Source: Mycolicibacterium madagascariense (GTDB taxonomy: Bacteria > Actinomycetota > Actinomycetes > Mycobacteriales > Mycobacteriaceae). From it: DNA of 64,000 nt. Below the pieces are notes generated by a model that did no database searches, was not told where the DNA came from, and saw nothing but the letters and a program-made list of their open reading frames with translations. Positions 13,333-35,630 of the stretch are shown one piece after another; positions within the stretch are counted from its first letter, which is position 1; every line of letters begins with the position of its first letter. The stretch lies in NCBI RefSeq assembly GCF_010729665.1, contig NZ_AP022610.1, positions 4,960,001 to 5,024,000 of the forward strand, in the 5' to 3' direction. Both the position numbers and the translations under genes were made by a program.

Positions 13333-14160
13333 CTAGCGCTGCGACCCGCCACGCTCGGCGGGCAGCGGCGGCAATTGCGAGGTGTCACCCGGGTTGGGGT
13401 TGGCCGGCGGGCGCGCGGAAGAATCTCCCGGCGCGGCCGGGGCCGACCCGCCCGACGGCGGTGGCGGCGGGGCTTGCTCGCCTGCCCCGGGTCCGCCGGG
13501 TCCTTGACCGGGTCCGCCAGGTCCCTGACCGGGGCCTTGACCGGGGCCCTGACCGGGTCCGCCGGGGCCGCCGGGTCCTTGACCGGGCGGGGGAGGCGGC
13601 GGCCCGCCGGGCCCACCCGGTCCGCCGGGTCCACCAACTCCGGGTCCCCCGGGTCCGCCGAATCCGGGTCCACCGGACGGAGGTGGCGGCGGTCCACCGG
13701 GCCCACCCGGCCCACCGGGTCCACCGGGCCCACCCGGCCCGCCGAAACCGGGTCCGCCAGGTCCGCCGGGTCCGTGGGGTCCACCCGGGCCGCCGAAACC
13801 GGGCTGGTGCGCTCCCGGCGGCGGTGGCGGACCCTGGGGCCCGTATCCGGGGCCGAACCCGGGGTCCGGCTGGTCGACGGCCGCGGTGCCGACCGTCAAC
13901 GACATCATCGGGTGCGCGTCGACCGCCCAGCCGCCGAACAGGCCGACCACCAGACCGACGAGCGCAGACCCGACCGCCACCCCGACCGGGTGTTGGCGGG
14001 CGGGCGCGGTGACCGACTCCCACCGACCGCGTCGCCGCTCCGGCTCCACCTCCGGCTCGCGGGCCTGCGCCGGTTCTGCGGTTCCGTACAACTGGGCGGT
14101 GGGGGCTTCGTCGCCCTCCCTCTCACTCGAAACATCATGTGCTGCTTCGTCATTGCTCAT
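13333..14160 (-). CDS. Collagen-like Gly/Pro-rich single-pass membrane protein
   Basis: 275 residues from the ATG at 14160, preceded by GGGAG. Residues 1-57 are charged and hydrophilic with no signal peptide. One transmembrane helix (about 58-80, VGVAVGSALVGLVVGLFGGW) is followed by a long tail, about residues 98-235, of GPGGPGGP, GFGGPGG and GQGPGG repeats with PPPPP interruptions, ending in a Pro/Ala-rich segment. The topology would be cytoplasmic N-terminus with an external Gly/Pro tail. It is transcribed away from a response regulator 121 bases upstream whose partner kinase also has a Pro-rich external segment. Function is unknown; the low-complexity tail makes family assignment unsafe. 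Confidence 0.75.
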   Translation of the reverse strand: MSNDEAAHDVSSEREGDEAPTAQLYGTAEPAQAREPEVEPERRRGRWESVTAPARQHPVGVAVGSALVGLVVGLFGGWAVDAHPMMSLTVGTAAVDQPDPGFGPGYGPQGPPPPPGAHQPGFGGPGGPHGPGGPGGPGFGGPGGPGGPGGPGGPGGPPPPPSGGPGFGGPGGPGVGGPGGPGGPGGPPPPPPGQGPGGPGGPGQGPGQGPGQGPGGPGQGPGGPGAGEQAPPPPPSGGSAPAAPGDSSARPPANPNPGDTSQLPPLPAERGGSQR

Positions 14161-31455: not shown

Positions 31456-32482
31456 TGTCGGAACACCTCCCCTTCGACGGATCGGGCGGCCCACCGAACG
31501 GGATCAGGATGTCACTGCCCGCCGGGCCGTTGATCTTGATCCGGATCGAGCAGTAGTAGATGTTGAAGAACGACCCGTAGGCGCCAAGGGCGTTAAGCCG
31601 CAGATAGTTCTCGGCGAGCGGCTCGATGACCTTGTTGACGTCGGCCTTGCGCTCGTCCATCCGCTGGGCGAACGGGCGGAGGTTCTCGATGACGCCCTGC
31701 ACCGGTCGGCGGCCGTGGAGCAACAGGTCGGTCAGATCGCTGGTCGCCGAGGCCAGCGGCGGGATGGCGCCCGCGATCGGGTCGCGGTTCTGGGCGAGGC
31801 CGGTGATGAGCTGCTGCAACTGGTTGACGCTGGAGTCGAACTGGGCGCCCTTGGCGTCGATCGTGCCGAGCACCGCATTGAGGTTGTTGATGGTGTCGCC
31901 GATGAGCTGGTCGCGCGCCGAGAGGTCCTGAGTGAACGACGACGTGCTGGCCAGCAGCGTGGCCAGCGAGCCGCCCTGCCCCTGCAGCAGCTCGATGATC
32001 GCGTTGCTGACCTCGTTGACCTTGTTGCCGTCGAGACCCTTGAGCACGGGACGCAGACCGCCGAGCAGCGCGTCGAGGTCCAGCGCCGGCTGCGTGTTCG
32101 ACTTCGGAATGGTCGCACCGACCGGCAGCTTGCGCAATTCGCCTGGGCCAGAAGTGATTTCGAGGTAGCGATCACCGACCAGGTTCTGGTAGCGCACCAC
32201 GGCCCGGGTGGAGGTGTAGAGCTGATAGCGGTCGTCGACGTCGAACGTCACGTCGACGGTGTTGTCGGGGTTGAGGTCGACGCCCTCCACCGAACCGACC
32301 GGCACCCCGGCGATCCGGACGTCCTGGCCCGGCTTGAGCCGCGACGCCTCGGTGAACGTGGCGTGGAACGTGCGACCCGACGCGAAGCGGAACTGGCCGA
32401 ACACCACCACCAGGCCCGCGGCCACCAGCAGCATGACGACGGTGAAGATGCTGACGTTGAGGAGCGTGCGATCGCGCTTCAT
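31448..32482 (-). CDS. mce4B: Mce4B, sterol importer subunit
   Basis: 344 residues. An N-terminal helix (LNVSIFTVVMLLVAAGLVVV), the Mce domain (RTFHATFTEASRLKPGQDVR, IAGVPVGSVEGVDL), the helical region, and a C-terminal conserved segment with YGSFFNIYYCSIRIKINGP. It is one of the six Mce proteins of the operon and probably part of the hetero-hexameric sterol channel. The ATG overlaps the mce4A stop by one base. Confidence 0.96.
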   Translation of the reverse strand: MKRDRTLLNVSIFTVVMLLVAAGLVVVFGQFRFASGRTFHATFTEASRLKPGQDVRIAGVPVGSVEGVDLNPDNTVDVTFDVDDRYQLYTSTRAVVRYQNLVGDRYLEITSGPGELRKLPVGATIPKSNTQPALDLDALLGGLRPVLKGLDGNKVNEVSNAIIELLQGQGGSLATLLASTSSFTQDLSARDQLIGDTINNLNAVLGTIDAKGAQFDSSVNQLQQLITGLAQNRDPIAGAIPPLASATSDLTDLLLHGRRPVQGVIENLRPFAQRMDERKADVNKVIEPLAENYLRLNALGAYGSFFNIYYCSIRIKINGPAGSDILIPFGGPPDPSKGRCSDNG

Positions 32483-33678
32483 CAGTAGTCATCCCTTTCC
32501 GCGTAGGCGCCGTGGAACAGGAACTGCAGCGTGGACGGAGCGTCGAACTGCAGCTCGGTGTTCGGCTGGAACGGGACGTAGGCGTTGTCGGTGACGAGGA
32601 ACGGCGTGTGGTACCACGACCCGCCGTACTGCTTGCTCGGCACGTCGGGCAGGCCCCGGCAGTTGGGCCCGCCGGACGCATTGACCATGGGCAGGCTCTC
32701 CGGGTAGGTGTACGCCGGTGCGCCGGGCAGGAAGTTCGACGCGACGAACAGGCCGGGCCGGATGCCGCCGATGATCGGGGCGAAGCGGTCGACCGCGATC
32801 GACGTGCCCTTGAGGATGCACCCGATCTCCGGTGAGTAGTCACCCGCCACCTTGAGCGGGGCCCGCAGTCGCTGGACGGCGGCGATCAGGTCCTCGGCGC
32901 CGGGCTGCAGCGTCGCGGTGCCGTTGTTGGCCAACCCGGTCGCGGCCAGCAGCGTGGCGTTCAGGTTGTCCTGCTGATCGACGAGGGTCTTGCTGATGGT
33001 GGGCAGGTTGTCGAACACCGTCACCAGATCGGGTGCGGCGTCGGCATAGACGTTGCCGACCTGGCCGGTCTGCTGGAAGACCTGCTGGAGCTCGGGCAGC
33101 TTCGGGTTGAACTTCTGCAGGAACGTGCTCAGCCCGGACAGCGACGCGCCGAGGTCGTCGCCGTTGCCGCGCAGACCTTCGCCCAGCGCACTGAGCGTGG
33201 CGTTGAGGTCGATCGGGTCGATCTTCTGCAGGGTGTCGGTGAGCGACTGGAAGAGCGTGTTGACCTCGAGTTGCACGTCGGGCGCGGCGACCTGGGTGCC
33301 CGGCCGCAGCGAGCCGCCCTCCGGTTGCTCGGGGGTCAGGAACTCCACCGACTTGGCGCCGAACACCGTGGTGCTCGCGATGCGCACCTTGGCGTTGGCG
33401 GGCACGTAGCGCAGCTCGCTGCTGTCGACCGACAGCGTCAGCTTCGCGCGGTCGCCGGCGTAGTCGATCGCCGACACCTTCCCGATCTGGATGCCGCGGT
33501 ACTTGACCTTGGCGTCGGTCTCCATCACCAGGCCGGCGCGCGGCGCGGTCACCGTGATGGTGTCGGTGGGGGTGAAGGCCGCGGTGTAGGACAGGTAGGT
33601 GAAGACGACGGCGACGAGCAGCACGGCCGCGAGGATCGCCGCGGCGATCCGCACGTGACTGCGCTTGGCGTCACCCAT
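32482..33678 (-). CDS. mce4A: Mce4A, sterol importer subunit
   Basis: 398 residues. An N-terminal helix (IAAAILAAVLLVAVVFTYLS), the Mce domain (DTITVTAPRAGLVMETDAKV, YRGIQIGKVSAIDYAG), a helical needle (about 130-270) and a C-terminal segment with AYTYPESLPMVNASGGPNCR and GGSWYHTPFLVTDN. It is the first Mce subunit after the two YrbE permeases, 12 bases downstream of yrbE4B. Mce4A is required for cholesterol import in M. tuberculosis; the same role is expected here. Confidence 0.97.
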   Translation of the reverse strand: MGDAKRSHVRIAAAILAAVLLVAVVFTYLSYTAAFTPTDTITVTAPRAGLVMETDAKVKYRGIQIGKVSAIDYAGDRAKLTLSVDSSELRYVPANAKVRIASTTVFGAKSVEFLTPEQPEGGSLRPGTQVAAPDVQLEVNTLFQSLTDTLQKIDPIDLNATLSALGEGLRGNGDDLGASLSGLSTFLQKFNPKLPELQQVFQQTGQVGNVYADAAPDLVTVFDNLPTISKTLVDQQDNLNATLLAATGLANNGTATLQPGAEDLIAAVQRLRAPLKVAGDYSPEIGCILKGTSIAVDRFAPIIGGIRPGLFVASNFLPGAPAYTYPESLPMVNASGGPNCRGLPDVPSKQYGGSWYHTPFLVTDNAYVPFQPNTELQFDAPSTLQFLFHGAYAERDDY

Positions 33679-33690
33679 CTCTCGACCCTT

Positions 33691-34533
33691 CTATCCGGAC
33701 AGGTTGAAGTTGCCCGACGCGCCGTAGACGGCCAGGGAGATGAACAGGGTGATCGTGACGACGACGATCAGCGAGGTCCGCACGGCCTGCCCGACGGCGA
33801 TGCCGACGCCGACCGGTCCGCCGGACGCGTTGTAGCCGTAGAAGGTGTGCACCAGCATCACGGCGATGGACATGACGATGGCCTGCAGGAACGACCACAG
33901 CAGATCCGTCGGCACCAGGAACGTGTTGAAGTAGTGGTCGTAGAGACCCGCGGACTGTCCGTTGATGAACACGGTGGTGAACCGCGCCGCGAAGAAGGCC
34001 GCGAGCACGGACAGGGAGTAGAGCGGGACGATCGCGATCAGGCCCGCGATGATCCGGGTCGAGACGAGGTAGGACACCGAGTGCACGGCCATCGCCTCGA
34101 CGGCGTCGATCTCCTCGGCCACGCGCATCGCGCCCAACTGTGCGGTGGTGCCCGCACCGATGGTGGCGGCCAGGGCGATGCCCGCGATGACCGGCGCGAC
34201 GATGCGGACGTTGAGGAACGCCGAGAGGAATCCGGTGAGCGCCTCGATGCCGATGTTGCCCAACGACGAATAACCCTGGACCGCGATGACGCCGCCGGAG
34301 GCCAGGGTCAGGAAGGCGGCGACGCCGACCGTGCCGCCGATCATCACCAAAGCGCCTGCGCCCATGGTCATTTCGGCGATCAGCCGGATCGTCTCGCGGC
34401 GGTACCGGGTCAGCGCGTTGGGGATGTACCGTACCGACTCCCCGTAGAACAGGGCTTGCTCGCCGATGACGTCGACGGCCTTGGGCACCCCGCGGAAGAA
34501 CCGCCGGATGCGCAGCGTGGCGTCGTAGCTCAT
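33691..34533 (-). CDS. yrbE4B: YrbE4B, MlaE-type permease
   Basis: 280 residues from the ATG at 34533 (MSYDATLRIRRFFRGVPKAV). Five or six hydrophobic helices carry the MlaE/YrbE core, including TMGAGALVMIGGTVGVAAFL and the conserved cytoplasmic loop AQLGAMRVAEEIDAVEAMAV. It pairs with YrbE4A as the membrane permease that hands sterol from the Mce tunnel to the cytoplasm, energised by the shared ATPase Mkl encoded elsewhere. Its start lies at the end of a 96-bp block of three tandem repeats, each with the same ATG and purine-rich ribosome site, so other initiation points compete upstream. Confidence 0.96.
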   Translation of the reverse strand: MSYDATLRIRRFFRGVPKAVDVIGEQALFYGESVRYIPNALTRYRRETIRLIAEMTMGAGALVMIGGTVGVAAFLTLASGGVIAVQGYSSLGNIGIEALTGFLSAFLNVRIVAPVIAGIALAATIGAGTTAQLGAMRVAEEIDAVEAMAVHSVSYLVSTRIIAGLIAIVPLYSLSVLAAFFAARFTTVFINGQSAGLYDHYFNTFLVPTDLLWSFLQAIVMSIAVMLVHTFYGYNASGGPVGVGIAVGQAVRTSLIVVVTITLFISLAVYGASGNFNLSG

Positions 34534-34626
34534 CGCGACCGTCTCTTCTTCGCCCAAGCGCTCATCGCGACCGTCTCTTCTTCGCGCAAGCGCTCATCAT
34601 GACCGTCTCTTCTTCGCGCAAGCGCT
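34531..34626 (-). repeat. Three 32-bp tandem repeats at the yrbE4A-yrbE4B junction
   Basis: Copies at 34531-34562, 34563-34594 and 34595-34626 differ by at most three bases. In the minus direction each holds an ATGAGC and a purine run GAAGAAGAGAC about 12 bases before the next ATG. The first ATG (34629) overlaps the yrbE4A stop as ATGA; the last (34533) is the yrbE4B start. Because 32 is not a multiple of three, upstream ATGs read short frames such as MSACAKKRRS. It looks like a duplicated translation-initiation region. Confidence 0.9.
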
Positions 34627-34628
34627 CA

Positions 34629-35405
34629 TCAGCGGGCCAACACTCGGACCCCGACCGCCGTCAGAATCACGTTGATGACGAACAGGCAGATGAACGCGTA
34701 GACCACGGTCTCGTTCACGGCCACGCCGACGCCCTTGGGGCCGCCCTTTACCGTCAGCCCCCGGTAGCAGCCGACGAGGCCGGCCATCAAGCCGAACAGC
34801 AGCGCCTTGAACATCGCGAGGACGAGCTCGCCGAGCCCGGTGAGGATGGTGAGCCCGTTGATGAAGGCGCCCGGGTTGACGCCCTGGAGGAAGACCGAGA
34901 AGACGTAGCCACCGGAGATGCCGATCGCACACACCAGACCGTTGAGCAGCAGCGCCACCAGCGTGGAGGCCAGCACGCGGGGCACCACCAGTCGCTGGAT
35001 CGGATCGATGCCCAGCACCCGCATCGCGTCGATCTCCTCGCGGATGGTGCGGGCACCGAGGTCGGCGCAGATCGCGGTCGCCCCGGCGCCGGCCACGACG
35101 AGCACCGTGACCACGGGGCCCAGCTGGGTGATGGTGCCGAACGCCGTACCGGCGCCGGAGAGGTCCGCCGCGCCGATCTCGCGCAGCAGGATGTTGAGCG
35201 TGAAGGCCACCAGCACGGTGAACGGGATGGCGACCAGCAGCGTCGGGATGAGCGAGACGCGCGCGATCATCCACGTCTGCTCGAGGAACTCGCGGAACTG
35301 GAACGGCCTGCGCCAGATCTTGACGAAGGTGTCCAGGGACATCTCGAAGAAGCCGCCAACGGCCCGAGCCGGAGCCGTCAGCTGTTCCTTCAACCTAGGC
35401 TCCAT
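34629..35405 (-). CDS. yrbE4A: YrbE4A, MlaE-type permease
   Basis: 258 residues. Membrane helices include LIPTLLVAIPFTVLVAFTLN and TQLGPVVTVLVVAGAGATAI; the conserved cytoplasmic loop is CADLGARTIREEIDAMRVLG. It is the first gene of the mce4 operon and forms the permease dimer with YrbE4B. The ATG is 113 bases downstream of a KstR box (35518-35531), with a second box at 35607-35620, so import is probably derepressed with the rest of sterol catabolism. Its stop codon overlaps the first ATG of the tandem repeat block. Confidence 0.96.
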   Translation of the reverse strand: MEPRLKEQLTAPARAVGGFFEMSLDTFVKIWRRPFQFREFLEQTWMIARVSLIPTLLVAIPFTVLVAFTLNILLREIGAADLSGAGTAFGTITQLGPVVTVLVVAGAGATAICADLGARTIREEIDAMRVLGIDPIQRLVVPRVLASTLVALLLNGLVCAIGISGGYVFSVFLQGVNPGAFINGLTILTGLGELVLAMFKALLFGLMAGLVGCYRGLTVKGGPKGVGVAVNETVVYAFICLFVINVILTAVGVRVLAR

Positions 35406-35517: not shown

Positions 35518-35531
35518 TAGAACGTGTTCAC
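35518..35531. promoter_or_regulatory. KstR operator candidate (TAGAACGTGTTCAC), mce4 proximal
   Basis: Matches TnnAACnnGTTnnA. It lies 113 bases upstream of yrbE4A and is the nearer of two boxes in this gap, so it probably covers the mce4 promoter. Confidence 0.85.
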
Positions 35532-35606: not shown

Positions 35607-35620
35607 TGTAACGTGTTCTA
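35607..35620. promoter_or_regulatory. KstR operator candidate (TGTAACGTGTTCTA), mce4 distal
   Basis: A second full match, 76 bases further from yrbE4A and 31 bases past the hsd4A stop codon. Two boxes before one operon could give tighter repression by KstR dimers. Confidence 0.8.
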
Positions 35621-35630
35621 GTGCTCACAG

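Follow-up and report, generated by a model that had tools for sequence, protein, structure and literature searches.

The 64-kb window of Mycolicibacterium madagascariense DNA analysed here (the whole stretch of 64,000 nucleotides) carries on its minus strand two permease genes, yrbE4A and yrbE4B, separated by a tandem array of a 32-bp repeat. Both reading frames matched the MlaE-type permease model TIGR00056 below its curated cut-off (34629-35405, E 1.2e-44; 33691-34533, E 1.1e-29), and the frame that follows, 32482-33678, matched the MCE family model TIGR00996 above cut-off. From the gene order and the usual make-up of the operon, we take it to be mce4. Tandem Repeats Finder (TRF) placed the array at 34528-34630 with a period of 32, 3.2 copies, 95% matches and a score of 185, the top tandem-repeat score in the window (the runner-up row had 148). 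The original prediction of 32-bp tandem repeats between the two genes was thereby confirmed. The genes, the array and its short open reading frames (mini-ORFs) are as follows.

34629..35405, minus strand: yrbE4A, MlaE-family permease; stop TGA at 34631-34629
34528..34630, minus strand: three-unit 32-bp tandem array, 3.2 copies by TRF
34597..34629, minus strand: mini-ORF 1, MSACAKKRRS; TGATG join to the yrbE4A stop; stop at 34599-34597
34562..34600, minus strand: mini-ORF 2, MMSACAKKRRSR, also written (M)MSACAKKRRSR; ATG at 34600 or 34597, these starts overlapping the mini-ORF 1 stop; stop at 34564-34562
34530..34565, minus strand: mini-ORF 3, MSAWAKKRRSR; ATGA overlap with the mini-ORF 2 stop; stop at 34532-34530
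33691..34533, minus strand: yrbE4B, MlaE-family permease; ATG at 34533, alternative in-frame TTG at 34557 that would lengthen YrbE4B by 8 residues
32482..33678, minus strand: first downstream MCE-family protein gene

The array occupied the gap from the yrbE4A stop to the yrbE4B ATG and held four ATGs, at 34629, 34600, 34597 and 34565. When all starts were translated, three mini-ORFs of 10-12 codons were obtained, and every TGA stop overlapped the next ATG. Frame analysis gave the stop/start chain yrbE4A > mini-ORF 1 > mini-ORF 2 > mini-ORF 3 > yrbE4B, in which the units chain stop into start because 32 is 2 modulo 3. The last mini-ORF TGA and the yrbE4B ATG formed an ATGA overlap. An overlap of the same form had been proposed for the yrbE4A stop and the first array ATG; the two do overlap, but as TGATG with one shared base, inside TGATGA. 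The upstream ATGs had also been regarded as decoys in other frames. Not all of them were in other frames, as the ATG at 34629 shares its frame with the yrbE4B start at a distance of 96 nt, a stop closing that frame after 10 codons. Simple decoy starts were ruled out by the frame analysis, since the mini-ORFs form a relay, each stop overlapping the next start.

Dispersal of the repeat

When the array region was searched against its own genome at the DNA level, 13 further matches were found, and a single other array accounted for five. The core of the repeat, GAGCGCTTGCGCGARGA, was present in 27 exact copies in this genome, and exact cores lay at ten separate loci. With up to two mismatches there were 51 matches, compared with 6 for the reversed pattern, and a covariance model of the core gave 39 matches at E <=0.5, the weakest of which were at chance level. 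Within the genus (Mycobacterium/Mycolicibacterium, delimited by named relatives) the core was found in 193 of 297 genomes, the richest of which had 100 exact cores, and the reversed pattern was absent throughout. In a sample of the order, 43 of 298 genomes carried the core: 23 of 35 from the genus and 20 of 243 from other families, 15 of these 20 belonging to a single family (f2). None of the 20 genomes sampled from the family's other genera had the exact core. In a phylum-level sample the core was found in 6 of 296 genomes, with single matches in the three outside the genus; the reversed pattern was also found in three genomes.

This distribution bears on whether the array could be a purely local duplication, in which the 6-bp ATGAGC microhomology was duplicated by slippage and no mobile family was involved. 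Tandem copies of one locus shared the variable 3' half, whereas different loci mostly did not. Tandem expansion is therefore local, and the second and third copies likely arose by local tandem duplication. The same core, however, was present at ten exact-copy loci here and in genomes across the genus. That the unit itself arose by local duplication, as in the history first proposed for this junction, was ruled out by the dispersed family. We give a purely local event almost no credence.

A candidate vehicle and a candidate mobiliser were rejected. For a phage or plasmid, none of 50,697 phage records and none of 72,556 plasmid records matched the array; in a viral contig collection, two stretches did. 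Repetitive extragenic palindromic (REP) elements are associated with a Y1-type transposase, and such an enzyme was considered as the mobiliser. PF01797 matched 2 of 11 many-copy genomes, this one included, versus 4 of 11 genomes without an exact core, and one of the two matches in many-copy genomes reached only 23.8 bits. An Rfam search at the gathering threshold, covering four loci of the element as well as the window, yielded nothing but one tRNA, in the window (RF00005, 13200-13271). The 15-base core was absent from the literature searched, and among the matches listed no title or abstract start dealt with the element; subscription papers were mostly outside the scope of this search.

Genomic sites of the repeat

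We surveyed 90 loci, 10 of them loci of this genome with exact cores and 80 from 13 other genomes. The 80 were drawn from 13 of the 21 genomes with places listed; in 12 of the 13 all clusters among the matches listed were used, and in one (G174) one of two. Four further regions of this genome with diverged matches were inspected and left out of the counts. The best coding frame was on the strand of the element in 74 of 90 loci upstream and 77 of 90 downstream, and both frames were co-directional with the element in 58 of the 75 loci with clear coding on both sides.

The position of the copies relative to stop and start codons was also biased. Of 72 loci with clear upstream coding, 50 had the upstream stop at position +1 or -2 relative to the ATG of the element. 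At the other end, the mini-ORF stop overlapped the downstream start in 33 of 69 loci with clear downstream coding, while the other two frames gave 0 of 69 and 9 of 69. These 33 overlaps comprised 23 of the -4 form and 10 of the TGATG form, and their mini-ORFs started with ATG in 31 cases, with ACG in one and with CTG in one. Both ends overlapped in 29 of the 58 loci with clear co-directional coding (29 of all 90). Full relays are thus common, not universal. A period of 2 modulo 3 was found in 14 of 16 arrays that overlapped a stop, compared with 4 of 13 other arrays.

Other copies kept the upstream stop alone, some of them ahead of opposite-strand genes, and a minority lay inside coding sequence. 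Two loci that precede non-co-directional genes, L213 and L217, still had the 32-bp period. The extreme coding case was L129, elsewhere in this genome and outside the window (C1:4218816-4219268; window coordinates are C1 coordinates minus 4960000, as used for the matches of hairpin model R1 below). It consists of 14 in-frame 33-bp units with CGAC in place of TGAC, which read as STDERLREEPA, so that the element has turned into a coding repeat. This array lies at the apparent start of what we take to be a nicotinate phosphoribosyltransferase gene.

Empty and filled yrbE4 junctions

We compared the same junction among relatives. Of 110 yrbE4A-yrbE4B loci, 107 were parsed (L043, L079 and L110 were not). 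Insert-free junctions took the forms of an ATGA overlap (cgATGAGCTAC), TGATGAGCTAC, and TAGTGAG joins, and filled junctions were longer by about 30-32 bp per unit; some others had spacers not assignable to the element. The many insert-free relatives with cgATGAGCTAC or TGATGAGCTAC bore out the proposal that yrbE4B originally started at an overlap with yrbE4A.

A yrbE4B tree was made with 78 rows, namely 77 parsed named loci and the window; the unnamed and named sets overlap in genomes. When a unit was scored as present at 14 or more of 20 matches, so that decayed copies such as L061 and L064 counted as absent, 55 junctions had no unit, 19 had one, two had two and two had three. The comparison of copy number that had been proposed thus gave 0-3 units across related species, and a fixed three-copy block was not seen. 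At least 17 presence/absence changes, gain and loss alike, were needed on the tree, 9 of them forced by well-supported branches. Shuffled labels averaged 20.1 changes, so the trait was only weakly clustered on the tree. At a second locus, four units followed an acyl-CoA dehydrogenase gene in this genome and none was present in the four orthologues examined.

Two rows of the junction set stood out for other reasons. In L112 (Mycolicibacterium pyrenivorans) the yrbE4B match covered 1149 bases, against 840 for 280 residues; the gene seems to be interrupted, or the match joins two pieces. L097, from a record labelled as an Acidobacteria metagenome-assembled genome (UR.bin238), was placed among Mycolicibacterium rows, probably owing to a binning error.

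The differences in copy number between relatives would also be expected if the number acted as a rheostat, each unit lowering or raising YrbE4B relative to YrbE4A and slippage being selected for tuning. The range of 0-3 copies includes two genomes labelled M. peregrinum with two and one (L088, L092). Upstream of fpg1, M. tuberculosis strains have a variable-number tandem repeat of mycobacterial interspersed repetitive units (MIRUs), and its length is described, in the part of the source consulted, as correlated with the fpg1 mRNA level (PMC2734929). Tuning is not general, however, because 55 of 78 junctions were without any unit at the threshold used, and the unit length preserves the overlap chain at any copy number. 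We therefore consider a rheostat unlikely. An on/off phase switch is also unlikely, because every copy number keeps the relay and a change of 32 bp gives no frame switch.

A proposed covarying hairpin at the stop codon

The 24-nt core could be drawn as a hairpin, x2 x GA Y GA GCG CTTG CGC GA R GA y y2. Three copies were matched by model R1 in the array.

34609..34632, minus strand: candidate hairpin copy 1, 42.2 bits; the host-side foot CT pairs with AG
34577..34600, minus strand: candidate hairpin copy 2, 40.2 bits; outermost foot pair A/G unformed
34545..34568, minus strand: candidate hairpin copy 3, 31.2 bits; degenerate, with a stem mismatch (GCG vs GGC) and foot mismatches C/A and G/G

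Among the first copies of the 90 surveyed loci, the Y-R pair was formed in 87 (shuffle mean 74, maximum 81), GAT going with GAAGA and GAC with GAGGA. The closing pair x-y was formed in 88, as C-G, T-A, G-C or T-G (shuffle mean 57, maximum 66), and x2-y2 in 62 (mean 44, maximum 55). Pairing of x3 with y3 was unsupported, at 12 of 90 compared with a shuffle mean of 22. To judge from the conserved GA flanks, two tandem G.A steps would enclose the variable Y-R pair.

An alignment of 110 sequences, 49 of them distinct, was then scored (alignment A1: the 90 first copies and 20 of 23 junction copies). L059 and L066, which had the fewest core matches (15 and 14 of 20) and pair poorly, were left out, as was L073, whose 24-mer is identical to that of L072. 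Paired cells made up 89.8% compared with 77.6% after shuffling, and the covariation score was 0.383 compared with 0.172; none of 500 shuffles was as high in either measure, and partners slid by 1-3 columns scored at most 0.164. Since the core had served to select 90 of these sequences, a pattern barring G-C at the outer stem pair was searched in 148 genomes. It gave 37 matches compared with 3 for the reversed pattern, a number that includes tandem neighbours and probably orthologues, so that independent events are fewer. Fully Watson-Crick stems were found in 27 of the 37, 17 as ACG/CGT and 10 as CCG/CGG (shuffle mean 12.8, maximum 22). Two genomes of the genus without the exact core had stems built on this plan as well, at L294 (GCG-CGTG-CGC) and L307 (GCGCG-GCTA-CGCGC).

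Two sets of related structures were noted beside these. L294 and L307 have tandem units of 51 and 56 bp with other stems and loops, a spacing near the 53-bp MIRU class. In family f2, composite elements at gene junctions (L149-L154, L162, L163 and L306) combine the same hairpin with a second part like GAGTGAGCATCGCAGCGAG, and in tandem their hairpins are 82-93 bp apart.

The stem also bears on whether the MSACAK-like mini-peptide is itself a functional product or a leader-peptide sensor. The mini-ORF frame was retained at many sites, as this would predict. Double changes, on the other hand, preserved the stem while altering codons, and the 33-bp array L129 reads the same DNA in another frame. 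A role for the peptide is therefore very improbable.

The foot of the hairpin matched the last bases of the upstream gene. Where the element overlaps the upstream stop (50 loci), x-y was paired every time and x2-y2 in 44 cases; the remaining 40 loci gave 38 and 18. Either the element picked or copied these target bases when it inserted, or the hairpin is preserved together with the host bases around the stop codon. With its G.A steps, its Y-R pair and this foot, the hairpin points to recognition of the strand in folded form by a putative reader, either in the mRNA where the stop codon lies or in single-stranded DNA (ssDNA) during insertion.

The ssDNA reading is possible, though rather less likely than not. 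The hairpin would then be an ssDNA substrate of transposition or template switching, with the match between foot and host reflecting target choice or templating, and without a role as RNA. Foot pairing was best in first copies and poorer in later copies with different preceding bases, RNA folding energy was unremarkable, and GTAG-type REPs likewise often give flanking ORFs their stop codons, according to the parts of PMC3733652 consulted. On the other side, the coding-strand bias (74 and 77 of 90) is explicable by selection at the mRNA level, the outer foot pair was formed better at stop-overlap loci than elsewhere, and no Y1 transposase match was found in this genome.

Proposed origin and its weak points

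We concluded, with a probability of roughly 0.8, that the array is an occupied site of a short dispersed mycobacterial repeat family whose copies insert, or persist, at stop codons and chiefly at TGATG and ATGA overlaps. The dispersal, the site preference, the overlap chain, the empty sites, the copy-number differences between species and the covariation support it directly. As the 32-bp unit starts and ends in an overlap, insertion would convert "A overlaps B" into "A > mini-ORF > ... > B". Terminating ribosomes would re-initiate at every stop/start step, which would make the insert nearly transparent to translation, and tandem copies would afterwards be gained and lost at the site. On this account, which is the most economical one, an insertion element with such ends and such a length would hardly be noticed by translation where two genes overlap. 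From this arrangement we infer mobility itself, the efficiency of coupling and near-neutrality. The sterol-import operon probably tolerates the repeat because the repeat rebuilds the stop/start overlap with its own tiny gene.

A further step, possible but doubtful, would be that an undescribed mobile RNA/ssDNA hairpin family wraps the upstream stop, pairs its foot with the last bases of the gene and serves as a portable coupler of translation. The ribosome would melt the hairpin, read the mini-ORF and hand on to the next gene, and the number of units would set the number of re-initiation steps between operon genes.

Several observations weigh against these interpretations. The upstream-stop overlap was lacking in 22 of 72 loci and the downstream-start overlap in 36 of 69, and coupling cannot be the point for copies in coding frames (L129) or before non-co-directional genes. 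The Fisher and binomial statistics, those on array period and strand included, treat related loci as independent, and some orthologues were counted in more than one genome. In later tandem copies, whose preceding bases are unlike those of the host, x-y was formed in 11 of 16 and the outer pair in 5 of 16. Two of the five measures on alignment A1 did not rise clearly above the shuffles: for pairs changed on both sides 45 of 500 shuffles were as high, and for additional pair types 305 of 500. Relatedness alone can also place sequences above their shuffles when no structure exists. The RNA minimum free energy of three sequences was not below that of shuffled sequence (z 0.36, 1.09 and 0.16). The proposed fold was the best fold in one of three folded sequences, that of the GAC/GAGGA form; the window array folds otherwise, and the structure of its copy 3 is broken. 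The search for a mobilising enzyme, by the Y1 transposase model PF01797, found none in this genome and none in 8 of the 10 other genomes rich in copies.

Comparison with known repeats

MIRUs were compared through passages of five papers (PMC12548453, PMC4128351, PMC2734929, PMC2453075 and PMC4213456). In these passages they are described as apparently mobile and inserting at start codons with -4 nt coupling (PMC12548453), with a unit of 40-100 bp (PMC2734929), and those of the senX3-regX3 spacer are said to be confined to M. leprae and the tuberculosis complex (PMC4213456). The element resembles them in insertion logic, in a unit length of 2 modulo 3, shared by the MIRU units of 77 and 53 bp, in its dispersal over many loci of a mycobacterial genome, and in an internal short ORF with stop/start overlap, seen at the window and in a fraction of the remaining loci (50 of 72 at the 5' end, 33 of 69 at the 3' end). 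It differs in its presence in 193 of 297 genus genomes, in contrast to the restricted spacer MIRUs, and in its covarying hairpin, which the MIRU passages compared do not mention. We did not file it as a MIRU because its 32-bp unit is outside the stated size range. It is set apart by MIRU descriptions, not by MIRU sequence; a published senX3-regX3 spacer primer had no exact match in 396 genus genomes.

Like REPs, the element is a hairpin repeat of 20-40 bp in many copies, and GTAG REPs often supply the stop of a flanking ORF (PMC3733652, as far as consulted). The covariation agrees with a palindromic hairpin in high copy, whereas folding energy gives no support. Unlike REPs as defined in that part of PMC3733652, the element has no GTAG or CGTC tag, and alignment A1 shows GAY and GAR flanks instead. 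Its stop is a TGA joined to a start, this genome lacks a match to the PF01797 transposase, and in the samples taken the element was confined to Mycobacterium and certain other families within the order.

Small ORFs coupled by RTGA are reported as over-represented in mycobacteria in the portion of PMC4633059 consulted. The mini-ORFs share with them the short length and a TGA stop overlapping the RTG start of the next gene. The ORFs of that portion come from leaderless transcripts, whereas here a repeated element lies between operon genes.

Other features of the window

Two AACGTGTTC-type sites lie 5' of yrbE4A, at 35518-35529 and 35610-35621; they seem to resemble the motif of KstR operators. 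Dense C/G-rich tandem repeats at 13487-13804 apparently code for Gly-Pro (collagen-like) repeats.

Implications

The novel feature may be a hairpin with covarying pairs that encloses the stop codon. If the proposed origin is true, a mobile element fits into dense operons by its own stop-start relay, with a length of 2 modulo 3 as the design rule. As a guess, MSACAK-like short ORFs or N-termini in mycobacterial annotations might trace to the element. With 0, 1, 2 and 3 units at one orthologous junction, the re-initiation efficiency per step, and hence the subunit stoichiometry, would become directly measurable.
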